From assembly GCF_900156525.1 (NCBI RefSeq), contig NZ_FTPS01000001.1, positions 682,001 to 746,000 on the forward strand: 64,000 nucleotides of DNA, given 5' to 3'. This stretch comes from Pontibaca methylaminivorans. GTDB lineage: Bacteria > Pseudomonadota > Alphaproteobacteria > Rhodobacterales > Rhodobacteraceae. Positions 7,032-64,000 of the stretch are shown in pieces. The first letter of the stretch is position 1. Each line of letters begins with the position of its first letter. The notes below the pieces were generated by a model. That model saw only the letters and a list, made by a program, of their open reading frames with translations, did not search any database and was not told the DNA's origin. The position numbers were made by a program, and so were the translations under genes.

Positions 7032-7131
7032 TTTCCTGTTCCGGTTTATCGGTTTCCGGGTTTGTCGTTCCGTCATGCGCGCCGGAATGTTCCGCAACCG
7101 CGCATGACAGGGCCCGGAACGGCGCCGCCGT

Positions 7132-48984: not shown

Positions 48985-50889
48985 ATGAAAATGACACTTC
49001 GCAAGGCGATGTTGCGTGCTTCGCCGCTGACCTTGCTCAGCGCGGTGGTGGTGGGCACGCTCGGGCTGCAGCCGGCACAGGCGAATGACAAGCTGATCGA
49101 GCTGGCCGAGGATCCGGCGAACTGGGTCATGCCCGGGCGCGACTATGACGAGCGCAACTATTCCGTGATGGACGAGATCAACAAGGAGAACGTCGGTTCG
49201 CTGCGTCCGGCCTGGTCCTTCTCGACCGGGGTGCTGCACGGCCACGAGGGCACGCCGCTGGTGGTCGATGGCAAGATGTATGTCCACACGCCGTTCCCCA
49301 ACACCGTCTTTGCGCTCGATCTGGACGATCCGGGCCGGATCCTGTGGCAGAACAAGCCGCAGCAGGATCCGACCGCGCGCACCGTGGCCTGCTGTGACGT
49401 GGTGAACCGGGGCCTGGCCTACTGGCCCGGGGATGACGACATGGGGCCGCTGATCTTCCGCACCCAGCTTGACGGGCATATCGCCGCGCTCGACGCCGAA
49501 ACCGGCAAGACCGTCTGGATGATGGAAAATGCCGACATCAGGGTCGGCGCGACCCTGACCATCGCCCCCTATATCATCCGGGACATGGTGATCGTCGGCA
49601 GTTCCGGCGCAGAGCTCGGCGTGCGCGGCTATGTCACCGCCTATGACGTCAAGACCGGCGAAAAGCGCTGGCGCGCCTATGCTACCGGCCCCGATGAAGA
49701 GCTTCTCCTGGCCGAGGACTTCAACGAGCCGAACCCGCATTACGGCCAGTTCAACCTCGGCACCGAGACCTGGGAAGGCGACGCCTGGAAGATCGGCGGC
49801 GGCACCAACTGGGGCTGGTATGCCTATGACCCCGACGAGGACATGTTCTATTACGGGTCCGGCAACCCCTCGCCCTGGAACGAGACCATGCGGCCCGGCG
49901 ACAACAAGTGGACCATGGCGATCTGGGGCCGCGATGCCGAAACCGGCGAGGCCAAGTTCGCCTACCAGAAGACCCCGCATGACGAATGGGACTATGCCGG
50001 CGTCAACGTGATGATGCTGTCCGAGCAGGAGGACGCCGAGGGCAACACGCGCAAGCTGCTGACCCACCCGGACCGCAACGGCATCATCTATACGCTCGAC
50101 CGCACCAACGGCGACCTGATTTCGGCCGACAAGATGGACGATACGGTCAACTGGGTGAAGGAGGTGCAACTGGATACCGGGCTGCCGGTGCGCGATCCCG
50201 AGTTCGGCACCCGCATGGACCACAAGGCCCGCGACATCTGCCCGGGCGCCATGGGGTATCACAACCAGGGCCACGACAGCTATGACCCCGACCGCAAGCT
50301 GTTCATGCTGGGGATCAACCACATCTGCATGGACTGGGAACCGTTCATGCTGCCCTACCGCGCCGGCCAGTATTTCGTTGGCGCCACGCTCAACATGTAT
50401 CCCGGCCCCAAGGGCGACCGGCAGAACGGTCTCGGCCTCGGCCAGATCAAGGCCTACAACGCCATCAGCGGCGAAATGGCCTGGGAGAAGATGGAGCGCT
50501 TTGCCGTCTGGGGCGGCACCATGGCGACCGCCGGCGGGCTGACCTTCTACGGCACGCTCGACGGGTTCATCAAGGCGCGCGACAGCGACACGGGCGAACT
50601 GCTGTGGAAGTACAAGCTGCCCTCGGGCGTGGTCGGCCATCCGATGACCTATACCCATGACGACCGCCAGTATGTCGCCATCTACTACGGTGTCGGCGGC
50701 TGGGCCGGTGTCGGGCTGGTGTTCGACCTCGAGGATCCGACCGCGGGCCTTGGTGCCGTGGGCGCCTTCCGCCGTCTGCAGGAATTCACCCAGATGGGTG
50801 GCGGCGTGATGGTGTTCTCGCTCGACGGCGAAAGCCCCTACACCGACGACGTCAATCTCGGCGAATACGCGGACGACGACGAAGCCTGA
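48985..50889 (+). CDS. mxaF: PQQ-dependent methanol dehydrogenase large subunit MxaF (calcium type)
   Basis: Periplasmic quinoprotein that oxidises methanol to formaldehyde. It is 634 aa with a signal peptide (residues ~1-33, cleaved after AQA) and an eight-blade PQQ propeller. The vicinal disulfide Cys136-Cys137 (TVACCDVV) is present. The catalytic Asp lies in [10 protein letters not shown]: the position two after it is Ala, whereas lanthanide XoxF enzymes have Asp (DYD), so this is MxaF. mxaI downstream agrees. ATG 48985 follows GGGAGAGGA; a longer in-frame extension lacks support. Confidence 0.97.
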
Positions 50890-50901
50890 TGATCGAGGGA
50901 C

Positions 50902-50934
50902 GCACCGGGCGGCGCATCCTGCCTCGCCCGGTGC
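50902..50934 (+). terminator. Intercistronic hairpin between mxaF and mxaJ
   Basis: GCACCGGGC (50902-50910) and GCCCGGTGC (50926-50934) form a 9-bp stem 13 bp after the mxaF stop with no T-run. It more likely stabilises the abundant mxaF message or attenuates downstream genes than ends transcription. Confidence 0.5.
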
Positions 50935-51010
50935 CGTTCGCGAGAACGGGTGACGTTCGGAAAGTGACGGAAAAAGACATGACAGTCAGAGATATGACGG
51001 AGCAAGCGAC

Positions 51011-51865
51011 ATGAGCACGAGACTTTCGTGCCTGCTGGGCAGCGCGGCACTGGCCCTTACGACGACAGCGGTTGCGGCCCAGGATGCCGAAGACAGCCTG
51101 CGCGTCTGCGCCTCGACCGATGATGCCCCCTATTCGACCGCCGATCGGGACGGGTTCGAGAACCGCATCGCCGAGGTCATCGCCGACGAGGCCGGGATGA
51201 CGCTCGAACTGGTGATGATCGACCAGCCCGGAATCTTCCTGTTCCGCGACGGTATCGACGCCGGCACCTGCGATGTGCTGATGGGCGTCGACGAAAACGA
51301 CGACCGGCTTCTGGTCAGCGAACCCTATTACCGGTCCGGCTATGCCTTCGTCAGCCGCGAGGACCGCGACTTTCAGGGCGAGAAATGGGAGGACGTGGAC
51401 CAGGAGGGATATGAGACCTTCGCCTATCGCTACTACACCCCGGCCGAAACCATCCTGAAATATACCGGCCGCTACGAATACAACCTTGTCTACCAGGCAT
51501 CGCTGACCAATTTCACCGACCGGCGCAACCAGTACACCCAGGTTCCCGCCCGGCTCGTGGTGAGCGAGGTCGCGGACGGCAATGCCGATCTCGGCATCAT
51601 CTTCGCCCCCGACGCGGGACGCTATGTGCGCGATTCCCGCACCCCGCTCAGGATGACGCTGATCACCAATGACATCGAACGGTCGGACGGGGTGATCATC
51701 CCGCTGCAGTTCAACCAGGCGGTCGGCGTATCGAAGGACCGGCCCGGGATCCTGGAAACCGTGCAGGATGCGCTGAACAGCGGACAGGACCGGATCGAAG
51801 CCATCCTCGACGAGGAAGGCATCCCCACCCTGCCGCTGGACAAGACAGACAAGGACGAGAAATGA
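51011..51865 (+). CDS. mxaJ: MxaJ, periplasmic binding-protein-like partner of methanol dehydrogenase
   Basis: 284 aa with a signal peptide (cleaved after VAA, ~residue 23) and a solute-binding-protein type 3 fold ([40 protein letters not shown]). MxaJ is needed for active methanol dehydrogenase; it probably helps PQQ or calcium insertion or stabilises MxaF. Second gene of mxaFJGI; its stop overlaps the mxaG start by 4 bp. Confidence 0.92.
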
Positions 51866-52395
51866 GAAAACTATCGCTGGCAGTTGCGGCTTTCGCGCTC
51901 GGCACCACCGCGGCCATTGCCGAGCAGCAGTTCTATCACACCACCGAAGGCACCCCGCTGGATCTCGATCTGGCCAGGGAAGAAGGGCGCGACACCGAGG
52001 CCGTCAAGGAATTCCTCGACACCGGGGTCAACATCTATGTCGAGGATCCCGAAGTCCTTCCCGAGGGCGAAGACCTGTACCTGACCATGTGCTCGGGCTG
52101 TCACGGCCATTACGGCGAGGGCAAGATCGGCCCCGGCCTGAATGACGCCTACATGAGCTACAGAAGCAACGAAACCGATGTCGGGCTGTTCTCGACCATC
52201 TTCGGCGGCGCGTCGGGCCAGATGGGGCCGAACTACAGCACCCTGACGCTGGACGAGATCCTCAAGGTCATGGCCTGGGTGCGTCATCTCTATGTCGAGG
52301 ATCCGGCCGATGCCGTCTGGCTGACCCCGGAACAGCGCGAGGAATTCACACCATTCGACCCGGATGCGGACGGCGGTGGCGACAGCGAGGAGTAA
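51862..52395 (+). CDS. mxaG: Cytochrome cL (MxaG), electron acceptor of methanol dehydrogenase
   Basis: 177-aa periplasmic c-type cytochrome with signal peptide (cleaved after AIA). One heme site CSGCH at residues 77-81, axial Met in [11 protein letters not shown] and a long acidic C-terminus typical of cytochrome cL. It takes electrons from MxaFI and passes them to a class I cytochrome c and an oxidase, not encoded here. Confidence 0.94.
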
Positions 52396-52450
52396 CCACC
52401 CCGGCCCGTTCCGGCCAAAGCGGCTCAACATGGAGAAGGAGGAGACGACC

Positions 52451-52762
52451 ATGAAACTGACACTGCTCGGCATTGCTGCTGCCGTTGCGCTGGCGACACC
52501 GGCGCTTGCCTATGACGGCACCAACTGCAAGGCGCCCGGAAACTGCTGGGAGCCGAAACCGGACTATCCCGAAACGGTCGAGGGCTCGAAATACGACCCC
52601 CAGCACGACCCGGCCGAAGTCTCGAAACAGGGTGATTCACTGGCCGCCATGGACGAACGCAACCAGTGGCGGATCTGGAACATGAAACAGACCGGCGATT
52701 TCGTCTATGACGTGAACAAGATCCCGGACTACGAGGAAGGCTCCGCCCCGCCGAGCCAGTGA
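52451..52762 (+). CDS. mxaI: Methanol dehydrogenase small subunit MxaI
   Basis: 103 aa with a signal peptide ending ALA. The mature part starts YDGTNCKAPGNCWEPKPDYP (disulfide Cys pair) and runs through KYDPQHDPAEVSKQGDSLAA to a helical lysine/arginine-poor tail. MxaI wraps MxaF in an alpha2beta2 enzyme and occurs only with calcium MxaF, not XoxF. The Shine-Dalgarno AAGGAGGAG is near perfect, which fits very high expression. Confidence 0.95.
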   Translation: MKLTLLGIAAAVALATPALAYDGTNCKAPGNCWEPKPDYPETVEGSKYDPQHDPAEVSKQGDSLAAMDERNQWRIWNMKQTGDFVYDVNKIPDYEEGSAPPSQ

Positions 52763-52902
52763 TCGCGGCCCCGCGGGATCGCCCCTGAAACAGGCAGTCC
52801 ACGAGGTTCGTGCCGTGCGCGTCATGCGCTCCCCCGGCGCAACGCCTCCCCCTGGCGGCGTGTGCGGCACGGACCCTGCCCTTTGCGGAAGACGAACAAT
52901 TC
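52763..52902 (+). other. Structured spacer between mxaI and mxaR
   Basis: The 140-bp spacer holds CGCGG-CC-CCGCG right after the mxaI stop and a larger stem GTGCCG/CGGCAC (about 52810-52870) containing smaller hairpins such as GGCG-CAAC-GCC. It separates the highly expressed mxaFJGI from the accessory genes and may set their lower level. Confidence 0.45.
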
Positions 52903-53934
52903 ATGTCGGACAAGGACGACCCGGCCACCGATGACTGGCGGCAGCGCTTTCGCGCGGCCGAAGCCGAACTCGGGCACATCATTCTCGGCCAGCAGCGGGT
53001 GATCCGCCTGCTGCTGCTTTCGGTGCTGGCGCGCGGCCATGTGCTTCTGGCCGGGGATGTCGGCACCGGCAAGACGACGCTCCTGCGGGCCATGGCGCGG
53101 GCACTCGGCGGCCCCTTTGCCCGCATCGAGGGCACGGTCGATCTGCTGCCCAGCGACCTGATCTATGACGCCCATCTCGACGACCAGGGCCGCCCCCTGA
53201 TCGAGCCGGGGCCGGTGTTGTCGCGGGGCGAAGACCTTGCCGTTTTCTTCTTCAACGAAATCAACCGCGCCCGGCCGCAGGTTCATGCCCTGCTGCTGCG
53301 GCTGATGGCCGAGCAGAGCCTCACCGCCTTTCGCCGCGAACACCGCTTTCCCCATCTCCAGGTCTTTGCCGACCGCAACCAGATCGAGCGGGACGAGACC
53401 TTCGAACTGCCGGCCGCCGCCCGCGACCGGTTCATGTTGGAAATCGAGGTCGGGCTGCCGCAGACGCGCGAGGACCGCATCGCGCTTGCCTTCGACACCC
53501 GCTTTCACGACACCGACAGCCTGATTTCCCATGTCACCGAAGGGTCGCTGCCCTATCGCGGGCTGAACGGGCTGGCGCGCGAGGTTCAGGACCGGGTGCA
53601 TGCAAGCGAGGCGCTGCAGCGCTACGTGTTCGACCTTTGCGATGCGCTGCGCGACCCCGGGGCAGCGGGGCTTTCGATCGAGGGCGCCGACGCGGAGCGG
53701 CTTGTGCGCGGGGGCGTCAGCCCGCGCGGCATGCAGTCGCTCGTGCGCGTGGCCCGCGCCGCCGCCTGGATCGAGGGGCGCGACATGGTGCTGCCGCAGG
53801 ACGTGCGCGCGGTGTTCCAGCCGGTCATGGCCCATCGCACGTTCCTCAATCCCGCCTATGAACCGCGCCGGGAGCTTCTGGTTCCGGCGCTGATCTCCGC
53901 CGCGTTCGACGCGATCCCGGTTCCGGCGCAATGA
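52903..53934 (+). CDS. mxaR: MoxR-type AAA+ ATPase MxaR
   Basis: 343 aa. Walker A GDVGTGKTTL near residue 51, Walker B VFFFNEINRARPQVHALLL, sensor and lid regions to residue ~300. MoxR ATPases act as chaperones for metalloenzyme assembly together with von Willebrand (vWA) proteins; here the vWA partners are MxaC and MxaL. Required for calcium insertion or assembly of methanol dehydrogenase. First of six overlapping genes R-S-A-C-K-L. Confidence 0.93.
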   Translation: MSDKDDPATDDWRQRFRAAEAELGHIILGQQRVIRLLLLSVLARGHVLLAGDVGTGKTTLLRAMARALGGPFARIEGTVDLLPSDLIYDAHLDDQGRPLIEPGPVLSRGEDLAVFFFNEINRARPQVHALLLRLMAEQSLTAFRREHRFPHLQVFADRNQIERDETFELPAAARDRFMLEIEVGLPQTREDRIALAFDTRFHDTDSLISHVTEGSLPYRGLNGLAREVQDRVHASEALQRYVFDLCDALRDPGAAGLSIEGADAERLVRGGVSPRGMQSLVRVARAAAWIEGRDMVLPQDVRAVFQPVMAHRTFLNPAYEPRRELLVPALISAAFDAIPVPAQ

Positions 53935-54803
53935 CCGCCGGGGGGGAAGAACTTTATCTGTTCGACGCGCTCGCCTGGCGGCTTGGCCGGCGCCAGCCGG
54001 GCCAGCACGAGGGCGCGCATCGCGGGCGGATGCGCGGCAGCGGCGATTCATTCGCCGACATCGCGCCGCTGCTCGCCTATCCCGATCCGCGCCGGCTGGA
54101 CATACGCCGCTCGCTCACCGATCCTTTCGGCGGCTTTTTCGTGCGCCGTTTCGAGCGCCGCACCGACATCGCCCTGCATATCCTGCTGGACGGATCGGCC
54201 TCGCTCGGGGCGGGGGCGGCGTCGGACCGTCAGGGGCTGGCGGCGCTGCTCGCGGGGGGGCTCGCGCAGGCCGCGCGCCGGGGTGGCGACCGTGCCGCGA
54301 TACAGGTCATCGGCGGCGAGCAGGTGCTGTTCGAGGCGCCCGCGACCCGCCGCCCGGGCCTGGGCGAGGAACTCCGCGCCGGAATCAATGCGCTGCAGCC
54401 CGCAGGCCGGGGCACGGCGGGGCTCATCCGTGCGGCGGAGGCCCTGCCGCTGCGGCGCGTGCTGGTGGCGCTCGTGTCAGATTTCGATCACGGGGCGGAT
54501 GAACTCGACCACTTGCTCGGCGCGCTGACACCGCGCCCGGTCCTGCCGTTCTGGCTGCGCGACAGCGGTCTGGAAAACCCGCCGGGCCGGCCCGGCCTCG
54601 CCGAGGCACGCGACCCCGAGACCGGGCGCCGCCACACCGTCATCACGGGCCGCAAATGGGCCGCCCGCCAGCAGGAGGCCGCGCGGGAGCGCCGCCGCGA
54701 CCTGCGCCGTGTGTTCTCGAACCACGGGCTGCGCGCGGTCGAGATCCGCGACAGCATCGACATCGACCACCTGGTCGCGGCGCTTGGCGAGGGGCTGCCA
54801 TGA
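53931..54803 (+). CDS. mxaS: MxaS, DUF58-family protein
   Basis: 290 aa. DUF58 core with DIRRSLTDPFGGFFVRRFER and ALHILLDGSASLGAGAASD (vWA-like segment). DUF58 proteins pair with MoxR ATPases. Cytoplasmic by sequence. The start overlaps mxaR and the stop overlaps mxaA (ATGA both sides). Role: assembly factor for methanol dehydrogenase, mechanism unknown. Confidence 0.9.
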   Translation: MTAGGEELYLFDALAWRLGRRQPGQHEGAHRGRMRGSGDSFADIAPLLAYPDPRRLDIRRSLTDPFGGFFVRRFERRTDIALHILLDGSASLGAGAASDRQGLAALLAGGLAQAARRGGDRAAIQVIGGEQVLFEAPATRRPGLGEELRAGINALQPAGRGTAGLIRAAEALPLRRVLVALVSDFDHGADELDHLLGALTPRPVLPFWLRDSGLENPPGRPGLAEARDPETGRRHTVITGRKWAARQQEAARERRRDLRRVFSNHGLRAVEIRDSIDIDHLVAALGEGLP

Positions 54804-55630
54804 AATGGCTGATGGTCCTTGCCCTGCTGCCGCTTCCGGCCCTTGCCCAGCCCGTGATCGAGGCCGAAAATCCGCGTCATCATGGCTGGTGGCTGGGCGA
54901 TGAGCTGATCCAGCGCCTGCATGTCCCCCTGCCCGAGGGGGTCATGATCGAAAGCGCGAGCCTGCCGCGCCCGCGCGCTGTGGATTACTGGCTCGACCTG
55001 CGCGAGGTGACGACCCGGAGGACCGAAAACGGCGTCGATGTGACGCTGCGCTGGCAGAATTTCTATGCGGCGATGGAACCCAAGCTGCGCGAAGTGCCGC
55101 CCTCGCCGATCCGCCTGTCCGACGGCACGGAAACGACGCTCCCCGGCTTTGAATTCGTCACCTCGCCGATCCATCCGATCATGATGCGGCCCGGCCCGGA
55201 CGAAATGATGCCCGATCCCGTCTATCGCCTGATCGACGCGCGCCCGAACCGGATCGGGCTGGCGCTCATGGCGCTCGTGTTCGTGCTGACGCTCGCGGTT
55301 CTGGCCTGGCATCAGGCATGGTGGCCCTTTCATGCCCGCCCGGCGCGCCCCTTTACCCGTGCCGCGCGGCAGATGGGCCGGGCGAATGACGCGGGCGCGC
55401 AGCGCCGGCTGCTGCATCGTGCCTTCGACGCCGCGTTCGGGCGGGTGCTGATCGGGGCGGACCTGCCCCGGTTTCTGGCCGCGCGGCCCGAATTCCGCCC
55501 GCTCGAGGATCGGCTGGCAACGTTCTTCCACGACTCGGATGCCGCCTTCTTCGGCGCCGGACAGCAGGTCACGGGCGAGGCGCCCACGCTCGCCCGTGAC
55601 CTCTCGCGCATCGAGCGGGGGCAGCGATGA
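54800..55630 (+). CDS. mxaA: MxaA, membrane-anchored assembly protein
   Basis: 276 aa with a signal peptide (cleaved after LAQ), a ~135-residue periplasmic domain (WWLGDELIQRLHVPLPEGV) and one membrane span near residues 153-173, followed by a cytoplasmic tail. Associated with calcium insertion into MxaF. Identity relies on order between mxaS and mxaC and on the topology typical of MxaA. Confidence 0.86.
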   Translation: MKWLMVLALLPLPALAQPVIEAENPRHHGWWLGDELIQRLHVPLPEGVMIESASLPRPRAVDYWLDLREVTTRRTENGVDVTLRWQNFYAAMEPKLREVPPSPIRLSDGTETTLPGFEFVTSPIHPIMMRPGPDEMMPDPVYRLIDARPNRIGLALMALVFVLTLAVLAWHQAWWPFHARPARPFTRAARQMGRANDAGAQRRLLHRAFDAAFGRVLIGADLPRFLAARPEFRPLEDRLATFFHDSDAAFFGAGQQVTGEAPTLARDLSRIERGQR

Positions 55631-56640
55631 TCGCCTTCGGCCTGCCGCAGATGCTGTTCGCCCTGCCCCTCGCGCTGTTGCCGCTGGTCGCGCGCTGGCT
55701 GCGGGCGTCGGATGTGCCGCGGCTCGACCTGCGCCCCGCCGACCAGGCATCCGGTATCATCGACCGGGCGCTGACCGGTTCCGGGATGCTGGCGATCGCG
55801 GCGCTGGTTACAGGGCTGGCCGATCCCCATCTTGCAGGCGGCACGGTCAGCTATCGCGGCAAGGGCACGAACCTTGTGCTGCTGATCGACCGCTCGGCCA
55901 GCATGGACGACACCTTTGCCGGGCTCCGCCCGGATGGCGAGAACGAAAGCAAATCGGTCGCGGCGCGGCGGATCCTGCAGGATTTCATTGCCGAACGCCC
56001 GGACGACCGCATCGGCATTGCCGCCTTTTCGACCTCGCCCATGCAGCTTTTGCCGATGACCACCGACCGCGCCGCGATCCGCGCCACGATCGACGCCCAG
56101 GGCGAACGGGGCCTGTCGCAGACCGATGTGGGGCGCGGGCTCGCGCTCGCCATGGACATGATGCAGGATGCCTCGATGCTTGGCTCGCGCGCGGTGGTCA
56201 TGGTCTCGGACGGGGCCGCCGTCATCGCCCGCGAGGTGCAGGAACAACTGCGGGAGATGGCGCTTGAACAGCAGGTGAACCTTTACTGGCTTTATCTGCG
56301 CAGCGCCGGCGACAAGAGCATCTTCGACAAGGGCAAGCCCGGCGAACCCGACACGCCGCAGGCACGGCCCGAACGCCACCTGCACCTGTTCCTGCAGCGG
56401 CTGGGCGTGCCCTACCGCGCCTTCGAGGCCGAGGATTCCGAAGCGGTCCAGCAGGCGGTGGACGAGATCGGCAAGCTCGAGGCCAAGCCGATCCTGACCG
56501 AGCACAGCGTGCCGCGCCGCGATCTCGACTGGATGTTCTATCTGGTGGCGGCGCTCGCGGCGGCGGGGCTTACGCTCGCGCGCTGGGTCGAACGCCCGTT
56601 TGCGCCGCGCCGCCCCGAACCGCTCATGAGGTCGCGATGA
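55627..56640 (+). CDS. mxaC: MxaC, von Willebrand factor A protein
   Basis: 337 aa. Two N-terminal spans, a vWA domain with MIDAS DRSASMDD near residue 90 (LVLLIDRSASMDDTFAGLRP), MVSDGAAV later, and a C-terminal membrane span near residue 300. Works with MxaR in methanol dehydrogenase maturation. Overlaps mxaA and mxaK. Confidence 0.88.
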   Translation: MIAFGLPQMLFALPLALLPLVARWLRASDVPRLDLRPADQASGIIDRALTGSGMLAIAALVTGLADPHLAGGTVSYRGKGTNLVLLIDRSASMDDTFAGLRPDGENESKSVAARRILQDFIAERPDDRIGIAAFSTSPMQLLPMTTDRAAIRATIDAQGERGLSQTDVGRGLALAMDMMQDASMLGSRAVVMVSDGAAVIAREVQEQLREMALEQQVNLYWLYLRSAGDKSIFDKGKPGEPDTPQARPERHLHLFLQRLGVPYRAFEAEDSEAVQQAVDEIGKLEAKPILTEHSVPRRDLDWMFYLVAALAAAGLTLARWVERPFAPRRPEPLMRSR

Positions 56641-57188
56641 GACGTCTGGCGCTGATCCTGATGCTTCTGATCCTGCTCGCTTCGGGCGCCGGAATCGCAT
56701 GGTTCGCCCATGGAGCCTGGGGCGACTGGCGCGACAATTCCGACATCCGCGCCATGGCGGCCGGGCGGCAGGCGGTGCCGCGCGAGAATGCCGATGCGCG
56801 GGCGATTCAGGGGCGCGTGCTGTACCTTGCACATCGCGACCTGCTGACCGAGGCGCTCGAGGTGCTGCCGCTGCTGAGCGATGCGCCCCCCGCGCTTCTG
56901 GCCGAAGCACGATATGCGATCGGCAATTCGCGGCTGCGCGGCGCCTTCGTGACGCTTGAAACCGGAATCATCGACGACGCCACCCCCGAGGTGAACCTTG
57001 CCAAGTCCGCCTATCGCGCGGCGCTGCGGGCCAGACCCGGGGACTGGAACGCCAAGCTCAACCTCGAACTGGCCATGCGGCTGGTCCGCGACCTTCCCCG
57101 CCCCGAAGCCGAGGGCGAGAGCGACCCCGACACGCGCCCGCGCCGGCTCTGGACCGATGTGCCGGGGATGCCGCGGGGTGGCCCGTGA
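56637..57188 (+). CDS. mxaK: MxaK, single-span accessory protein
   Basis: 183 aa: N-terminal membrane anchor (ALILMLLILLASGAGIAWFA) and a helical, TPR-like periplasmic region (LLTEALEVLPLLSDAPPALL, NLAKSAYRAALRARPGDWNA). Position between mxaC and mxaL gives the name. Function within assembly is not defined. Confidence 0.85.
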   Translation: MRRLALILMLLILLASGAGIAWFAHGAWGDWRDNSDIRAMAAGRQAVPRENADARAIQGRVLYLAHRDLLTEALEVLPLLSDAPPALLAEARYAIGNSRLRGAFVTLETGIIDDATPEVNLAKSAYRAALRARPGDWNAKLNLELAMRLVRDLPRPEAEGESDPDTRPRRLWTDVPGMPRGGP

Positions 57189-58123
57189 TGCGCCGGATCC
57201 TGCCGCCGCTGATCGTGACCGCGCTGGCGCTGCTTGCCGCCTTCCGCCCCGGATTCCTGCGCGAACAGCGGGTGAGCGACGCGCTGGTGATCGTGGACAT
57301 CACCCGTTCGATGAACGTGCGCGACATGGGCGGGGAATCGCGGCTCGATTACACGCGCCGCGCCATGCGCGACTGGATCGCCACCCGCCCCTGCGGCAGC
57401 CGGATCGGGCTTGGCGTGTTCACCGAACGCCGCAGCCTGACCCTGTTCGAGCCGATCGAGGTCTGCGAGAGCTTTGCCGCGATCGAGGGTGCGCTGTTCG
57501 GGGTCGACTGGCGCATGGCCTGGGATGGCGACAGCATGATCTCGAAGGGGCTGAACTACGCGGTGGAGCGGGCGGCGGAGCTCGACGTGCCGCTGATCTT
57601 CATCACCGAGGGGCAGGAATCGCCGCCGCTGCCCTATTCCGGCGCCGACCCGTTCCGGGGCGACAGTCCCGGCGGGCTCGTGCTTGGCGCCGGCGGCGAT
57701 ACGCCGGCACCGATCCCCTTTTACGATGACCTCGGGCGCGAGGTCGGATTCTACGGACCCGAGGATGTGCAGCACGCCCCGGCCCGGATCGGCCCGGCGC
57801 CCGAGGACGCATCCGAGCGCCCCGGCTATCACCCCCGCAACAACCCCTATGGCGAATCCGATCTGGAGGGGTCCGAGCATCTGTCCGAACTGCGCATGTC
57901 CTACCTTCAGGACCTGGCGCAGGAACGCGGGCTCGGTTTTCTGCGCGTCGATGCCGGCACGGCAGCGATCGACCGCGCCCTGGCCGAAAACGCACCGCAG
58001 CACCTGGTTCGCGCAAGGCAAAGCCTCTCGCCGCCCGTCGCCCTGGCGGCGCTGATCCTGCTGGTCGCGGCCTGGGTGCCGGCGCTTACGCTGCCGCGGC
58101 TCCGCCGGCAGGCGCCGGCATGA
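57185..58123 (+). CDS. mxaL: MxaL, von Willebrand factor A protein
   Basis: 312 aa. N-terminal span, vWA MIDAS in VIVDITRSMNVRDMGGESRL near residue 40 and a C-terminal span near residue 290. Second vWA partner of the MoxR-type ATPase. Last gene of the mxa operon here: mxaD, which follows mxaL in P. denitrificans, is absent and a LysR gene comes next. Confidence 0.87.
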   Translation: MMRRILPPLIVTALALLAAFRPGFLREQRVSDALVIVDITRSMNVRDMGGESRLDYTRRAMRDWIATRPCGSRIGLGVFTERRSLTLFEPIEVCESFAAIEGALFGVDWRMAWDGDSMISKGLNYAVERAAELDVPLIFITEGQESPPLPYSGADPFRGDSPGGLVLGAGGDTPAPIPFYDDLGREVGFYGPEDVQHAPARIGPAPEDASERPGYHPRNNPYGESDLEGSEHLSELRMSYLQDLAQERGLGFLRVDAGTAAIDRALAENAPQHLVRARQSLSPPVALAALILLVAAWVPALTLPRLRRQAPA

Positions 58124-58236: not shown

Positions 58237-59265
58237 ATGGATGATCGCAACGAGGCCGATACGGACGACGCTGCATTCGGCCAGAGCATGATCTCGGGCG
58301 GGGGCGTCACGCTTCGGCGACTTCAGATTTTCATCGTGGTCGCCTATTGCGAGACCCTGACCCGGGCGGCAAAGCAGCTTGGCCTTGCGCAGCCGTCGCT
58401 GTCGCAGCAGATTTCGGCGCTGGAACAGGCGCTCGGGATGCAGCTTTTCGACCGCCGCTCGAACCGGATGGAACTGACCGGCGAGGGGCACAAGGCGCTC
58501 GCGCTGGCCGAACGGGTGCTGAACAGCATGCAGGCGCTCGAGGACGGGGTTCGCGCCATCGGTTCGGGCGCGCGCCAGACGATCCGGGTGGCGGGGCTGA
58601 GCTCGGTCCTGCGGGTGCTGCTGCCGCCCGCGCTCGAGGCGATGCCGGGCGCGACCACGGGACTTGATTTCGACATTCACGAAAGCGCGCCGGCCGATGT
58701 GCTTGATCTGCTTTACGGCCGGCATGTGAGCCTCGGGCTCGTGGCCTCGGAATCGATCGAGGCGCCGCCCGCCGGATTCCAGATGGTGCCGATCATGACC
58801 GATCCGCTGGTGCTGGCGGTGCCCGGGCATCTTGACCTTGCGGGAATGCGCGACCCGGCCGAGGACCTTTGCGCCGATGACCTCGCGCTGCTTCATCGCA
58901 CCGTGCAGTTCGTCTTTGGAACGCGCACCGGCGACGGGGTGCGCGAATGGTACGGCCGCGCCCTGCCCCGCAGCCGGATGCTGGCACAGGTGCGCAGCTA
59001 TGAAAGCGCGCTCGCGCTCGTGCAGCAGGGGCTCGGCATCTGCGTCGTGCCGGTGCTCGCCACGAGGCTCGGCGGCAGGGTGGCCGAGAACCTCCGCCTT
59101 TACCGGACCGGGCTCGAACCGCGCCACATCGTTGCGATCCTTCCGTCGCAATATCTGCACAACCCGACCTATTCGGCCCTGATCGAGGCGCTCCAGCGCG
59201 CGGCCGGGCGTCTTTCGGGGGCGCCCCTGCATGATTGCCCGCCGTTCATCGGGGCCGCGTTATAG
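58237..59265 (+). CDS. LysR-type regulator between mxa and pqq
   Basis: 342 aa from ATG 58237. The HTH is near residues 22-80 (VTLRRLQIFIVVAYCETLTR, LAQPSLSQQISALEQALGM), then an effector domain. An upstream ATG at 58120 overlaps the mxaL stop as ATGA and would add a 39-residue Pro/Arg-rich leader; coupling supports it, protein composition supports 58237. It may read through from mxa and regulate pqqA, which starts ~100 bp downstream. The ligand is unknown. Confidence 0.83.
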   Translation: MDDRNEADTDDAAFGQSMISGGGVTLRRLQIFIVVAYCETLTRAAKQLGLAQPSLSQQISALEQALGMQLFDRRSNRMELTGEGHKALALAERVLNSMQALEDGVRAIGSGARQTIRVAGLSSVLRVLLPPALEAMPGATTGLDFDIHESAPADVLDLLYGRHVSLGLVASESIEAPPAGFQMVPIMTDPLVLAVPGHLDLAGMRDPAEDLCADDLALLHRTVQFVFGTRTGDGVREWYGRALPRSRMLAQVRSYESALALVQQGLGICVVPVLATRLGGRVAENLRLYRTGLEPRHIVAILPSQYLHNPTYSALIEALQRAAGRLSGAPLHDCPPFIGAAL

Positions 59266-59366: not shown

Positions 59367-59447
59367 ATGGCATGGAATGCCCCCAAGATCGAAGAAATGC
59401 CGGTCGGCATGGAAATCAACATGTACTCCTGCGCCAAGCAGAAGTGA
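59367..59447 (+). CDS. pqqA: PqqA, precursor peptide of PQQ
   Basis: A 26-residue peptide whose Glu16 and Tyr20 (segment MEINMYSCAKQK) form the E-x3-Y pair that is cross-linked and becomes PQQ. N-terminus MAWNAPKIEEMPVGMEI matches PqqA peptides. It is short enough to be missed by gene finders. ATG preceded by GGGAGAA. Followed 40 bp later by pqqB. Confidence 0.96.
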   Translation: MAWNAPKIEEMPVGMEINMYSCAKQK

Positions 59448-59487
59448 TTTCCGACCTTCGCCCGCCTGAGGCCGGGGACCGCCGGAC

Positions 59488-60423
59488 ATGCTGAAGGTGA
59501 TCGTTCTCGGCGTGGCGGCGGGCGGAGGGATTCCGCAGTGGAACTGCAACTGCCCGGGCTGCCGGGCAGCACGCGAAAGGCCGGAGCTTGCGGGAACGCA
59601 GGCTTCGATCGCGGTCAGCGCCGACGGGCGCAACTGGTTTCTGGTGAACGCATCGCCGGATATTCGCCAGCAGATCAACCGCACCCCGGCGCTTTTTCCG
59701 GCCGAGGGCACGGTCCGGCACAGTCCGATCACTGGCGTGATCCTGACCAACGGCGAGATCGACGCGATCACCGGGTTGCTGTCGCTGCGCGAAGGGTCGC
59801 CCTTTACCATCTACGGCCACCGGCGGGTGCTTGACGGGCTTGCCGGGAACAACGTCTTCAACGTGCTGAAGCCTGAACTCGTCCCCCGCGTCGCGATCAG
59901 GGCCGACACGGATTTCGAACCGCTCCTGCCGGACGGCAGCCCTTCGGGCCTTCTGGTCACGCCTTATGAGGTGCCCGGAAAACCCGCCTGGTATCTGGAG
60001 GAAACCGCGAGGGCGACCGCCGAGGTGCTGGAATATACGCCGGGTGATACGCTCGGCCTTCATATCCGGGAACGGGGCAGCGAGCGCGGTTTTCACTTCA
60101 TCGCCGCCTGTGGCGGCATGACCGGAGAACTGGCCGAGAGAATCCGGGGAACCCCGCTTCTGTTCTTCGATGGCACGCTCTGGAAGGATGACGAGATGGT
60201 GTCGGCCGGGCTCAGCCACAAGACGGGGCGAAGCATGGGCCATGTCCCGATGACGGGCGAGAGCGGCGCGATCAACGCGCTGGCCGGGCTCGGGATAGGG
60301 CGCAAGATGTTCGTCCACATCAACAATTCGAACCCCGCGCTGCGGCCCGAGAGCCCCGAGCGCCGCCGCCTCGAAGCTGCGGGCTGGCATATCCCCCACG
60401 AGGGAGAGGAGATCACCCTGTGA
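59488..60423 (+). CDS. pqqB: PqqB, metallo-beta-lactamase-fold PQQ biosynthesis protein
   Basis: 311 aa. N-terminus VIVLGVAAGGGIPQWNCNCP with the CxCxxC zinc-binding pattern, and later LTNGEIDAITGLLSLREG. PqqB hydroxylates the glutamyl-tyrosine intermediate before PqqC. Stop overlaps the GTG of pqqC. Confidence 0.96.
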   Translation: MLKVIVLGVAAGGGIPQWNCNCPGCRAARERPELAGTQASIAVSADGRNWFLVNASPDIRQQINRTPALFPAEGTVRHSPITGVILTNGEIDAITGLLSLREGSPFTIYGHRRVLDGLAGNNVFNVLKPELVPRVAIRADTDFEPLLPDGSPSGLLVTPYEVPGKPAWYLEETARATAEVLEYTPGDTLGLHIRERGSERGFHFIAACGGMTGELAERIRGTPLLFFDGTLWKDDEMVSAGLSHKTGRSMGHVPMTGESGAINALAGLGIGRKMFVHINNSNPALRPESPERRRLEAAGWHIPHEGEEITL

Positions 60424-61193
60424 GCACCGCCGAAGAGTTTTCCGCAACCGGATCCGCAACCGAAGCGCCGCTCATGGATGCCGAGGCGCTCGAGCGGCGG
60501 CTGCGCGAAATCGGGGCCGCGCGCTATCACAACCTCCACCCGTTTCACGACCTGCTGCACGGCGGCAAGCTGAACCGGGGGCAGGTGCAGGCCTGGGCGC
60601 TGAACCGCTACTATTACCAAAGCTCGATCCCGATCAAGGATGCGGTGGTGCTTTCGCGTTTCCGCGACCGCGAGACCCGGGTCGAGTGGCGCCACCGGAT
60701 CGAGGATCACGACGGCGACCGCGGCTCCGAGGGCGGCATCGAACGCTGGCTGAAGCTCACGACCGGGCTCGGCCTCGACCCCGATTATGTCCGCTCGACC
60801 GAAGGGATCCTGCCGGCGACGCGCTTTGCGGTCGATGCCTATGTGAATTTCGTGCGCGACCATTCCCCGCTCGAGGCGATCGCGTCCTCGCTCACCGAGC
60901 TTTTCGCGCCGACGATCCATGAACAGCGGATCGCCGGGATGCTCGAGCATTACGATTTCATCAATCCCGATGTCATGGTCTATTTCCGGCGCCGGCTTGA
61001 ACAGGCGCCCCGCGATGCGAATTTCGCCCTGAACTATGTCAAGGCCCATGCCACGACCCCACAGATGCGCGAGGACGTCTGCAAGGCGCTGATCTTCAAG
61101 ACAAATGTGCTCTGGGTGCAGCTTGACGCGCTGTATCATGCCTATGTCTCGGGCTTTCCGCCGCCCGGTGCCTTCGTTCCCGCGGAACACTGA
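60420..61193 (+). CDS. pqqC: PqqC, pyrroloquinoline-quinone synthase (GTG start)
   Basis: 257-aa cofactorless oxidase that performs the final ring closure and eight-electron oxidation (EC 1.3.3.11). Conserved AARYHNLHPFHDLLHGGKLN, YYQSSIPIKDAVVLSR, RHRIEDHDGD-like WRHRIEDHDGDRGSEGGIER and LTELFAPTIHEQRIAGMLEH. GTG at 60420 overlaps the pqqB stop (GTGA). The N-terminus is ~20 residues longer than the core; an internal ATG exists near codon 19. Confidence 0.96.
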   Translation: MSTAEEFSATGSATEAPLMDAEALERRLREIGAARYHNLHPFHDLLHGGKLNRGQVQAWALNRYYYQSSIPIKDAVVLSRFRDRETRVEWRHRIEDHDGDRGSEGGIERWLKLTTGLGLDPDYVRSTEGILPATRFAVDAYVNFVRDHSPLEAIASSLTELFAPTIHEQRIAGMLEHYDFINPDVMVYFRRRLEQAPRDANFALNYVKAHATTPQMREDVCKALIFKTNVLWVQLDALYHAYVSGFPPPGAFVPAEH

Positions 61194-61206
61194 AAGGGGG
61201 TCCGGG

Positions 61207-61521
61207 ATGACAGCCAGAGCGCCGAAATTCAGCATAACCCCGGAAAGCCGCCCGGTGCTGCCGCGCTATGTGACGCTGAAACACGACCGGATGCGCGAAC
61301 GCTGGCTGCTGCTGGCGCCCGAGCGGATTCTCATCCCCGACGACATCGCGGTCGAGGTGCTGAAGCTCTGCGACGGCAGGGCGACGGTGCAGGATCTCGT
61401 CGTCACGCTCGCGGCCCGCTACAGCGCGCCCGAAAGCACGATCATGCAGGACGTGACCCATATGCTGCAGGGGCTTGCCGACAAGGGTTTCCTTGTCGAA
61501 ACGAAGGAGGTCGCATCATGA
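61207..61521 (+). CDS. pqqD: PqqD, PqqA chaperone
   Basis: 104-aa RRE-domain protein that binds PqqA and delivers it to PqqE. Conserved LPRYVTLKHDRMRERWLLLA, LIPDDIAVEVLKLCDG and FLVE at the end. ATG 61207 lies 13 bp after pqqC with GGGGG before it. Stop overlaps pqqE (ATGA). Confidence 0.95.
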   Translation: MTARAPKFSITPESRPVLPRYVTLKHDRMRERWLLLAPERILIPDDIAVEVLKLCDGRATVQDLVVTLAARYSAPESTIMQDVTHMLQGLADKGFLVETKEVAS

Positions 61522-62717
61522 CCGAGAACCGGCCCGGAAGCATCGAACCGGACAAATCCTCCCCCTACGGCCTGCCGCTTTCGGTTCTGGCCGAGATCAC
61601 CCATCGCTGTCCGCTGCAGTGCCCCTATTGCTCGAACCCGGTCGAACTCGAACGTGCGAAAGGCGAACTCACCACCGAGGAATGGCACCGCGTGCTCGGG
61701 GAACTGGCCGATATGGGCGTGCTTCAGATCCATTTTTCGGGCGGCGAGCCCACCGCGCGCAAGGATCTGGTCGACCTCGTGCAGCGCGCGACCGATGTGG
61801 GGCTTTATTCCAACCTCATCACCTCGGCGGTGCTGCTTGGCCGCGAGCGGCTGAAGGCGCTTTACGATGCGGGGCTCAGCCATGTGCAGATCAGCTTTCA
61901 GGGCAGCGAGGATGCGCTCGCGAACCGCATCGGCGGCTACAGGCGGGGCCATCAGAAAAAGCTCGAGGCGGCGCGCTGGACCCGCGAGGTCGGGCTGCCG
62001 CTTACCGTGAATGCGGTGATGCACCGCCAGAACCTGCACCAGCTTCCCGACATGATCGACATGGCGGTCGAACTGGATGCCGCCCGGCTCGAGGTCGCCA
62101 ATGTGCAGTATTACGGCTGGGCGCTGAAGAATCGCGCTGCCCTGATGCCGACCTATCGCCAGCTTGAAGAAACCACCCGCATCGTCGAAGAGGCCCGCGA
62201 GCGCCTCGCCGGCATACTGGAAATCGACTATGTGATTCCCGATTACTATGCCAAGCGGCCCAAGAAATGCATGGGCGGCTGGGGTCGGCAGTTCTTCAAC
62301 ATCTCGCCCTCGGGCAAGGTTCTGCCCTGTCACGCGGCCGAAACCATCACCGGCCTCCGCTTCGATTCGGTGCGCGACCACTCATTGGCCTGGATCTGGG
62401 ACAATTCTCCTGCCTTCAACCTTTATCGCGGCACCGACTGGATGCCCGAGCCCTGCCGCAGTTGTCCGATGAAGGAAGAGGATTACGGCGGCTGCCGCTG
62501 CCAGGCATTCGCCCTTACGGGAAATGCCGCCAGCACCGACCCGGCCTGCGAACTTTCGCCCCTGCACGAAGAGATTTTCGCCATGGCCGCCGAAGAGGCC
62601 GAGGGCGAACAGAACCGTTTCGTCTATCGCAATTTCGTCGGTGGAACGCCCGAACGGGATCCCGCCGCCGATGCGCCCGCCGCGCAGACCCCGGCAACGG
62701 AGAAGGAAAATACCTGA
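61518..62717 (+). CDS. pqqE: PqqE, radical-SAM PqqA cross-linking enzyme
   Basis: 399 aa. The radical-SAM cluster CxxxCxxC is Cys31/35/38 (HRCPLQCPYCSNP), with FSGGEPTARKDL next. The C-terminal SPASM part carries KKCMGGWGR, PCHAAETITG, PCRSCPMKEEDYGGCRCQAF. Forms the C-C bond between Glu16 and Tyr20 of PqqA, assisted by PqqD. The last ~30 residues are a Pro/Ala/Glu tail. Confidence 0.96.
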   Translation: MTENRPGSIEPDKSSPYGLPLSVLAEITHRCPLQCPYCSNPVELERAKGELTTEEWHRVLGELADMGVLQIHFSGGEPTARKDLVDLVQRATDVGLYSNLITSAVLLGRERLKALYDAGLSHVQISFQGSEDALANRIGGYRRGHQKKLEAARWTREVGLPLTVNAVMHRQNLHQLPDMIDMAVELDAARLEVANVQYYGWALKNRAALMPTYRQLEETTRIVEEARERLAGILEIDYVIPDYYAKRPKKCMGGWGRQFFNISPSGKVLPCHAAETITGLRFDSVRDHSLAWIWDNSPAFNLYRGTDWMPEPCRSCPMKEEDYGGCRCQAFALTGNAASTDPACELSPLHEEIFAMAAEEAEGEQNRFVYRNFVGGTPERDPAADAPAAQTPATEKENT

Positions 62718-62724
62718 CGACAGC

Positions 62725-63696
62725 ATGAAGCCGGCCCCGGGCCCGGGGCTCCTGAGCGCCGGACACGTTCCGGTCGGCGAGGGGCATGACATCTATGTCG
62801 AAACATCGGGCGATCCCGGCGGGGTGCCGGTCGTTTTTCTGCATGGCGGCCCGGGCAGCGGCTTTCGCGCCGAACAGCGCCGGCTGTTTCCCCCGGATGC
62901 CTTTCTCGTGATGTTCGACCAGCGCGGCGCCGGACAGAGCCGCCCGGCACGCAGCCGGATCGACAACACCACCGTTCACCTGATCGCCGACATGGAACAT
63001 CTGCGCGACCGTCTCGGCATCCGGCGCTGGATCGTGACCGGCGGTTCCTGGGGGGCGACGCTTGCGCTGGCCTATGCCGAACGCCATGCCGAGCGCGTCG
63101 CGGGGCTGGTGCTGCGCTCGGTGTTCCTCGGCACCCGGCAGGAACTGGACACCGCCTTCCTGCACAACCCGGCGCTGTTTCACCCGGACCTGCATCGCGA
63201 CTTTCTGGCGCTGCTGCCACCATCCGAACGCGGTGATCCGCTGCCCGCCTACTGGGCGCGCATCCTCGGGCCGGACATGGCCGAAAGCCGCCGCTTTGCC
63301 CATGCCTGGCACGACACCGAGCGGATCCTTTCGGTCATCGCGCCAGCGCAAGCGCGGCTGGACCCGGCGGCGCTGAACGATCCAGCCCGCCCCCTGCCCG
63401 CGACGCCCTTCATGGAGGCGCATTATTTCAGCCACGGCTGTTTTCTGGACCACCGCCCGCTGCTTGAGAACGCCGCTGCGCTGCATGGCATTCCGGGAAT
63501 CCTCATCCAGGCGCGCCACGACCTGCTGTGCCCGCCCGCGACCTCCCATGCGCTGGCCGCGCGCTGGCCGGACGCCGAAATCCGCCATGTGGAGCAGGCC
63601 GGCCATTCGGTGAGCGACGGCGCGACGGCGGAGGCGCTCAAAGCGGCCATTCGCGACATGTCAGCCCGCATCGTGACTGCCCCTGCTGTGCCATGA
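62725..63696 (+). CDS. Prolyl aminopeptidase-like S33 hydrolase linked to pqq
   Basis: 323-aa alpha/beta hydrolase of the proline iminopeptidase group: VVFLHGGPGSGFRAEQRRLF (oxyanion HGGPG), MFDQRGAGQSRPA, nucleophile elbow VTGGSWGATLALAYAERH (GGSWG), and a late His in VEQAGHSVSDG. It starts 7 bp after pqqE and overlaps the M16C gene, so it belongs to the pqq operon. Trimming of PqqA or of its leader fragments is plausible, since PqqA has Pro at positions 6 and 12. Confidence 0.85.
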   Translation: MKPAPGPGLLSAGHVPVGEGHDIYVETSGDPGGVPVVFLHGGPGSGFRAEQRRLFPPDAFLVMFDQRGAGQSRPARSRIDNTTVHLIADMEHLRDRLGIRRWIVTGGSWGATLALAYAERHAERVAGLVLRSVFLGTRQELDTAFLHNPALFHPDLHRDFLALLPPSERGDPLPAYWARILGPDMAESRRFAHAWHDTERILSVIAPAQARLDPAALNDPARPLPATPFMEAHYFSHGCFLDHRPLLENAAALHGIPGILIQARHDLLCPPATSHALAARWPDAEIRHVEQAGHSVSDGATAEALKAAIRDMSARIVTAPAVP

Positions 63697-64000
63697 CCCG
63701 CACCGCCCATCCGGGGTTTGCCGGGATCGAGCGGCGCGACCTGCCCGAGATCGGGGCGCGCGCCCTGCACCTGCGCCATATCCGCACCGGCGCGGATGTG
63801 ATCTTTCTGCAGGACGGCGACAGCACCCGGAGCATCGCCATCGCCCTGCGCACCCGACCCGAGGATTCCAGCGGCGTCGCCCATGTGCTGGAACACTGCG
63901 TGCTTTCTGGATCGCGCGCCTATCCGGGCGCCCAGCCCTTTGCAGACCTGCTGAAAACTTCGCTCCACAGCCATCTGAACGCCGCGACATTTCCCGATTT
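63693..64000 (+). CDS. M16C presequence-protease-like metallopeptidase (5' part)
   Basis: Only the first ~102 residues are in the window; the gene runs past 64000. The inverted zinc motif HxxEH is visible as HVLEHCVLSGSRAYP (His64, Glu67, His68), followed by FADLLKTSLHSHLNAATFPD, which matches PreP-like M16C proteases rather than the paired M16B PqqF/PqqG enzymes. Starts by ATGA overlap with the S33 hydrolase. As the last visible gene of the pqq operon it is a candidate PqqA-processing protease. Confidence 0.85.
   Translation, partial: MTRTAHPGFAGIERRDLPEIGARALHLRHIRTGADVIFLQDGDSTRSIAIALRTRPEDSSGVAHVLEHCVLSGSRAYPGAQPFADLLKTSLHSHLNAATFPD

Follow-up and report, generated by a model that had tools for sequence, protein, structure and literature searches.

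The redox cofactor pyrroloquinoline quinone (PQQ) is made from the precursor peptide PqqA, and the release of the cross-linked Glu-Tyr from this peptide is poorly understood for operons that lack pqqF. A 64,000-nucleotide stretch of Pontibaca methylaminivorans DNA (the window; positions C1:682001-746000 of the genome, G000) ends inside a seven-gene block of pqqA-B-C-D-E, a gene for an S33 peptidase and a gene for an M16C peptidase. On balance, the S33 and M16C enzymes seem somewhat likely to form a cytosolic PqqA-maturation module of this pqq operon lineage. The block places an endopeptidase candidate and an aminopeptidase candidate in one operon, beside a methanol dehydrogenase cluster, which makes the step directly testable.

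The pqqABCDE genes occupy positions 59367-62717, and all five Pqq proteins exceeded their NCBIfam cut-offs (Table 1). The end of the pqqE stop codon (62717) and the ATG of the S33 gene (62725) are separated by 7 nt, and an ATGA at 63693-63696 is shared by the S33 stop and the M16C start. These gene identities and this layout had been given in a preliminary description of the DNA, and sequence and profile comparisons confirmed them. The M16C gene ends at C1:748443, 2,443 nt past the window, and its remainder was taken from the same genome. Gene content was not read from our own gene-caller output, which picked antisense frames in GC-rich loci.

The same association was found in other genera. 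Pontibaca salina has the identical seven-gene order, including the ATGA overlap, and this arrangement has been kept despite a M16C identity of 43% (PqqE, 79%; S33, 68%), which favors a maturation module. In the third member of the genus (G117), searches returned neither an M16C match nor a PqqE above the cut-off, and PqqE was likewise missing at E <= 1e-60. We scanned a collection of 84,980 species with two M16C queries and considered the best 80 of 424 relatives. Four of these 80 loci adjoined pqqABCDE-S33, namely those of Pontibaca salina, Roseitranquillus, Rubellimicrobium and Limimaricola, and the first three held the best-scoring M16C proteins. The Limimaricola protein is cut by a contig end and showed 44% identity over the available part. 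In Roseitranquillus and Rubellimicrobium, the M16C gene is inverted and lies tail to tail with the S33 gene, still adjacent to it. The next best full-length relative among the 80 (L088) had no pqq gene or S33 in a 20.8-kb stretch.

M16C was rare in the taxonomic samples. Of 292 genomes of the order, 72 had a PqqE over the cut-off and a single one, the window's own, yielded M16C. In a family sample of 394 genomes, about one per genus and not including Pontibaca salina, M16C was present in four. Two of them have pqqE, namely the window's genome and G1048, where pqqE is nearby and the M16C coordinates coincide with the Roseitranquillus locus; the other two, G1142 and G1037 (74% complete), gave no pqqE match. 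A class sample yielded M16C in 3 of 385 genomes, and the two besides the window's own were distant.

S33 proved to be the wider partner. PqqE was detected at E <= 1e-100 in 71 of 398 genomes of a phylum sample, from which we took 69 loci of 67 genomes not yet covered; 29 of the loci had 1.5-kb flanks, in which farther neighbors are missed, and one small pqqE contig of G783 was left out. S33 lay near pqq in 16 of the 67 genomes. It directly followed pqqE in ten genomes of another family, f171 (PqqE identity, 73-77%) and in G994, and in four of the five others it was immediately divergent from pqqB. In G748, an eleventh f171 genome with pqqE, the PqqE protein is less similar (59%) and S33 was not seen near its gene. 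No M16C was found near the pqq operon of the ten f171 genomes with an operon S33. M16C-like matches occurred in two phylum-sample loci, L248 (G928) and, weakly, L242 (24%). In L202, L203, L205 and L224, M16-like genes were recovered some 0.1 kb past the end of pqqE, where pqqF would be expected, so the neighbor survey was sensitive to such genes. The preliminary description had proposed surveying the co-occurrence of the two peptidases with pqq operons; such co-occurrence does recur, but in few genera, and S33 also occurs without M16C while most of the pqq loci examined have neither.

Several side observations belong to this survey. Divergent S33 genes in distant genomes stood beside pqqB in L254, L261, L265 and L267, after pqqE in L262, and 2.8 kb away in L263; L265 also has an apparent S9 peptidase 3' of pqqE. 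In L248, which belongs to another family, the PreP-like M16C gene (L248:279-3164) is directly upstream of pqqB. On a plasmid of Sphingomonas psychrotolerans, typed as conjugative (L323, NZ_CP024924.1), pqqABCDE is found with an annotated pip of canonical type overlapping the pqqE end. This plasmid was one of 12 records matching S33 at E <= 1e-60; of the two inspected, the other, from Qingshengfaniella, has pip near nusA and infB and no pqq in the stretch. An f171 S33 matched 55 plasmid records. A recent plasmid origin was rejected; among plasmid records, M16C gave just four partial, distant tblastn matches with 25% covered.

The S33 protein of the window is a divergent member of the prolyl aminopeptidase family. 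It passed the prolyl-aminopeptidase model TIGR01249 narrowly (263.7 bits; cut-off, 259.75), whereas the canonical S33 paralogue of the same genome, at G000:C1:1280658-1281563, scored 410.5 bits. The closest solved structure by sequence was 1qtr (E 2.3e-63), and an AlphaFold model with a predicted local distance difference test (pLDDT) value of 92.0 had 1wm1 and 1qtr as best fold matches (TMq 0.84-0.85). The catalytic triad (S108, D266, H294) and the two Glu residues that bind the substrate N-terminus (E199, E231) are present. The triad and these two Glu residues are conserved throughout the 15 operon-linked alphaproteobacterial S33 proteins; in 1qtr numbering, the residues kept in all 15 are Ser113, Asp268, His296, Glu204, Glu232, Phe139, Phe236 and Cys271. 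The fold, the triad, Glu204, Glu232, Phe139, Phe236 and Cys271 are thus common to the window protein and the Serratia marcescens prolyl aminopeptidase (1qtr/1wm1; S33.001). The two differ at Trp148 and Tyr149 of the Serratia enzyme, where the window S33 has Thr and Ala. Position 149, the aromatic residue of the S1 pocket, was Ala in 10, Gly in 4 and Val in 1 of the 15 operon-linked proteins, against Phe in 16 and Tyr in 4 of 20 canonical ones, so that the operon-linked set lacks this aromatic residue. Phe139, Tyr149 and Glu204 are reported to matter for substrate recognition, and Phe236 is also in the pocket (PMC9147577). Because the catalytic and amine-binding residues are kept while this recognition position is small, the operon-linked S33 has probably remained an aminopeptidase, one with more space in its S1 pocket.

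The two pqqE-bearing Pontibaca species carry the divergent S33 besides a canonical one, and the species without pqqE has the canonical one only. In the distant pqq neighbors, Glu232 was replaced by Gln in all five proteins compared (L254, L262, L263, L265 and L267). This residue comparison omitted L261, a long-branch pqq neighbor, and L298, which is divergent and not near pqq.

The M16C protein of the window resembles PreP but diverges in the linker region, as the Pfam domain M16C_assoc stayed under its cut-off (13.1 bits; cut-off, 25.3), yet the model aligned to PreP over 994 columns. By sequence, its closest relative of solved structure was 2fge (E 3.4e-94), the zinc metalloprotease PreP of Arabidopsis. 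PreP_C reached 59.7 bits against a cut-off of 27, and Peptidase_M16 and Peptidase_M16_C also exceeded their cut-offs. The best match of the AlphaFold model (pLDDT 86.5) was again 2fge, with a TMq of 0.89 and 26% identity. M16C_assoc exceeded its cut-off in the full-length orthologues L040, L047 and L048 and in the G928 protein. A probe of the window's genome with this domain gave no match, which is no sign of M16C absence, since the window protein diverges in that domain. The active site is complete, with HVLEH, the distal Glu157 and the pair R766/Y772, and these columns were invariant over 16 sequences. One chain of roughly 100 kDa thus holds both the zinc site of the form HxxEH...E and the C-half R/Y pair, as in the M16C family. 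The fold, HxxEH, distal Glu and R/Y pair are shared with PreP (2fge, 4l3t), from which the window protein differs in being bacterial and adjoining pqq. The PqqF model TIGR02110 (M16A) gave no match to it at E <= 0.1. PreP accepts peptides of up to 65 residues (PMC12731061), a limit under which the 26-residue PqqA fits. In the G928 protein, the zinc motif is HILEH, and an HGFEH near the N-terminus is a chance match.

Phylogenetic trees set the operon-linked enzymes apart from their relatives. The 15 operon-linked S33 proteins of Rhodobacterales and f171 formed one clade (100/100), distinct from the canonical enzymes, in two trees, the first with 21 canonical rows plus L261 and L298 and the second with 20 canonical rows and both of these omitted. 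The five pqq-linked M16C proteins also formed one clade (99/99), and a second M16C tree, which used 21 of 35 M16C proteins and omitted the contig-cut Limimaricola protein (L082), put the G1142 and G1037 proteins in another. The linkage is non-random, since it recurs across genera and S33 and M16C each form a clade. In the PqqE tree, one clade (100/99) held the 15 S33-linked operons together with the S33-less G263 and G094. Our reading is that S33 belongs to the operon lineage and was lost in G263 and G094, the deciding branch order being weakly supported. The S33 proteins near pqq in more distant genomes formed a separate group and the Sphingomonas S33 was of canonical type, so these trees indicate that the S33-pqq linkage arose more than once. 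The G928 M16C, just 5' of pqqB, grouped among gammaproteobacterial PreP proteins on a long branch. Notwithstanding that branch, its position points to a second, independent M16C-pqq linkage.

The two prolines before Glu16 in the window PqqA had been offered as the explanation for S33, with endo-cleavage by M16C and proline removal by S33. This part did not survive the comparison of PqqA peptides. Pro12 is present in three of the six S33-linked peptides read (window, L047 and L048) and missing from L040, L082 and L233, and a single proline precedes Glu16 in Pontibaca salina, Limimaricola and L233. The S33-less relatives L142 and L159, by comparison, retain Pro12 and have two prolines before Glu16. 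Proline removal as the driver of the linkage was therefore rejected, as Pro12 is not conserved and the proline pocket residue is altered in every one of the 15 operon-linked S33 proteins. What stood of the proposed alternative route was the idea of a processing set. No link of S33 or M16C enzymes to PQQ was found in the open-license papers searched, although subscription papers could differ.

The PqqA peptides also differed in their tails. In this operon lineage (window, L040, L047, L048, L082, L233, L142 and L159), they end Tyr-(Ser/Ala)-Cys-Ala-basic, while the 24 other PqqA peptides compared have Pro two residues past Tyr20 and an acidic tail. The tail type tracks the pqq lineage rather than the presence of M16C.

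Drawing on the observed gene content, linkage, clades and active-site and pocket residues, and on the predicted folds, we propose a location, a substrate, an order of cuts and a specificity for the two enzymes. In the established pathway, Glu16 is cross-linked to Tyr20 by PqqE together with PqqD. The M16C enzyme, a single-chain peptide-degrading chamber, would then cut the 26-residue cross-linked PqqA on either side of the cross-link, replacing PqqF or PqqFG. The S33 enzyme, with its opened S1 pocket, would act as a broadened aminopeptidase that strips the remaining residues ahead of Glu16 and possibly also the linker that precedes Tyr20. The diamino acid so released, still cross-linked, would pass to PqqB and PqqC. 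Where no M16C is nearby, as in the ten f171 genomes, S33 might trim after another endopeptidase. We also considered a wider scenario, tentatively and with some doubt. In it, the operon S33 clade would have arisen from prolyl aminopeptidase through an opening of S1 and would now be dedicated to finishing Glu-Tyr release as an aminopeptidase, and M16C would have been recruited to pqq at least twice (in Rhodobacterales and in the G928 lineage) as a PqqF substitute. Together they would complete a cytosolic maturation set for a cofactor of the type of ribosomally synthesized and post-translationally modified peptides, with an exopeptidase step that we have not seen assigned to any enzyme.

Several results weigh against the proposed module. 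Neither S33 nor M16C was present in any of the 71 other pqqE loci of the order sample within the fetched stretches, which reach less than 200 nt past pqqE in L189 and L200. No S33 was seen in 51 of the 67 further phylum-sample genomes. The closely related operons of G263 and G094 have neither gene locally, and no M16C was found genome-wide at E <= 1e-20; because these operons do without both, gene content indicates that PQQ synthesis in general does not depend on either enzyme. The S33 of the operon was the sole TIGR01249 match at E <= 1e-30 in the ten f171 genomes. It could serve general metabolism there, which weakens the case for its dedication. The trees also conflict inside the clades. 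The nearest neighbor of the two Pontibaca operons was Limimaricola by S33 (98/93), Roseitranquillus by PqqE (99/95) and Rubellimicrobium by M16C (97/95; Limimaricola omitted). Inheritance as a fixed unit is not supported by such disagreement, and gene-by-gene exchange or an artefact is possible. Finally, TldD/TldE acts in Gluconobacter (PMC8602642).

An explanation that we regard as unlikely, yet ahead of the other rivals in weight, is that a general protease encoded elsewhere (an M16B pair or TldD/TldE) makes the main PqqA cuts and that S33 and M16C are accessory or redundant. The genome does encode a PqqFG-like M16B pair at G000:C1:1919726-1922403, made up of neighboring M16 genes of half length: that at L044:5727-7079 carries HxxEH, and its partner is at 7076-8404. 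Relative to the pair of two fused-pqqCD genomes, the active subunit is 48-49% and the partner 40-42% identical. The 71 other pqqE loci of the family with no S33 or M16C nearby likewise mean that other solutions exist in this family. The genome also has a lone M16 gene, next to an apparent threonine synthase identified by eye.

The distribution of the M16B pair argues against tying it to PQQ. Of 34 genomes tested, 33 gave a strong match to its active subunit (E <= 1e-55), and among these 33 were 15 that had no PqqE over the cut-off (G117, G001-G005 and G007-G015). The exception, G094, has pqqE and just a distant homologue of the active subunit; in this genome, the M16B pair and M16C were not found and S33 was absent near pqq. 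Both M16B subunits have hydrophobic, signal-like N-termini in the window's genome and two genus-mates, and the active subunit has one also in G002, G004, G005, G116, G180 and one f171 genome, unlike that of the two fused-pqqCD genomes (L309 and L310). Peak N-terminal hydrophobicity was 1.68-2.75 in the signal-like active subunits, against 0.91 and 1.51 (the latter past residue 40) in the fused-pqqCD genomes, 0.88 in the window S33 and 0.40 in the window M16C. Going by hydrophobicity only, the M16B pair is probably exported here and S33 and M16C probably act where PqqA is made, and the localization of the M16B family may differ between lineages. This localization argument is weak, because it is hydrophobicity-based and Pseudomonas putida PqqF is itself listed as (periplasmic) (PMC12997753). 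Export need not keep an M16 enzyme from taking part in the pathway; this also counts against the module, and location alone does not dismiss the M16B pair. The same source reports that the prolyl-oligopeptidase-family gene beside pqqE in Pseudomonas is dispensable, in keeping with an accessory role. The preliminary description had held that pqqFG elsewhere in the genome would refute its proposal; a related pair is indeed present, but with export-signal-like N-termini and also in genomes where no pqqE was found.

It is rather improbable that S33 and M16C are salvage enzymes that make no productive cuts and clear leader, linker and tail fragments that would otherwise accumulate or compete for PqqD/PqqE. 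PreP-type M16C enzymes degrade spent presequences (PMC12731061), S33 prolyl aminopeptidases attack peptide N-termini (PMC9147577), and the opened S33 pocket would suit general trimming. Salvage alone, however, would not predict such recurrent linkage to pqqE, and a canonical prolyl aminopeptidase is already available for general salvage in this genus. Finally, it is very improbable that the two genes have no part in PQQ formation and are neighbors by chance or hitch-hikers in a mobile block of methylotrophy genes. In favor of this reading, the operon directly follows the methanol dehydrogenase cluster, and G117, with neither pqqE over the cut-off nor M16C found, suggests gain or loss of the block in the genus. 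Against it, the linkage outlasts deep divergence and M16C inversion, and different S33 and M16C branches are linked to pqq in other lineages. Chance adjacency as such was rejected on the recurrence in other genera and lineages.

PqqF/PqqG of Methylorubrum extorquens, a heterodimer of the M16B class, differs from the arrangement proposed here, where a single 916-residue M16C chain lies inside the operon and has an S33 partner. TldD/TldE of Gluconobacter is a different protease and is not part of the seven-gene block. In common with the window enzymes as we read them, PqqF/PqqG is a protease assigned to PqqA cutting (PMC10906245, PMC8602642, PMC7391723); its two genes are remote from pqqBCDE (locus tags 2330/2331 versus 1748-1750), and a fused pqqCD is listed for this species (PMC7391723). 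TldD/TldE is also an alternative protease implicated in PQQ supply (PMC8602642). A similar logic to that of the window is seen in Pseudomonas, where the metallopeptidase PqqF and an alpha/beta-hydrolase serine peptidase flank pqqABCDE (PMC12997753), with M16A instead of M16C and S9 instead of S33. The sources differ on this point, as PMC10467086 terms both Pseudomonas genes S9. Serratia PqqF is classed as M16A (PMC12731061), and the available part of this M16 review lists PqqF as M16A and does not tie M16C to PQQ. An aminopeptidase contribution has a precedent, because a leucyl aminopeptidase mutant of Methylorubrum extorquens showed a lag and slow growth on methanol with lanthanum, and its authors named PQQ processing among the possible causes (PMC7391723). 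In PMC10531626, the peptidases of PQQ synthesis are grouped as PqqF, PqqL, dipeptidyl/acylaminoacyl peptidase and TldD, and the S33-type genes recurring at pqq loci in several lineages point to an exopeptidase step outside these groups.

Table 1. Coordinates of the pqq block and the regulator gene in the window
Feature	Position	Strand	Evidence or remarks
LysR-type regulator, upstream of pqqA	58237..59265	+	LysR-family models; start uncertain, frame open from 58120
pqqA	59367..59447	+	26-aa precursor MAWNAPKIEEMPVGMEINMYSCAKQK, Glu16, Tyr20; Pfam PqqA 37.9 bits; TIGR02107 45.6 bits (cut-off 20)
pqqB	59488..60423	+	TIGR02108 365.6 bits (cut-off 245)
pqqC	60420..61193	+	TIGR02111 368.1 bits (cut-off 240)
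pqqD	61207..61521	+	TIGR03859 65.8 bits (cut-off 46)
pqqE, radical S-adenosylmethionine PqqA cross-linking enzyme	61518..62717	+	TIGR02109 599.1 bits (cut-off 381.35)
S33 prolyl-aminopeptidase-family hydrolase, operon-linked clade, altered S1 pocket	62725..63696	+	TIGR01249, 1qtr, tree, key residues
M16C presequence-protease-like gene, 5' part	63693..64000	+	Whole gene G000:C1:745693-748443 (L001:7694-10444), 916 aa

The LysR-type gene was also found 5' of pqq by tblastn in four of seven related loci tested (L040, L047, L142 and L159), while L048, L082 and L233 gave no match at E <= 1e-8. A methanol dehydrogenase cluster (48985-58123) lies 5' of the LysR and pqq genes, and the pqq operon comes directly after it. 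Its methanol/ethanol-family PQQ dehydrogenase, MoxJ and MoxG exceeded their cut-offs. A small protein at 52430-52762 resembles MxaI by eye and is followed by MoxR-like and von Willebrand factor A (vWA) genes, also recognized by eye. Judged from these genes, the strain looks like one that oxidizes methanol.

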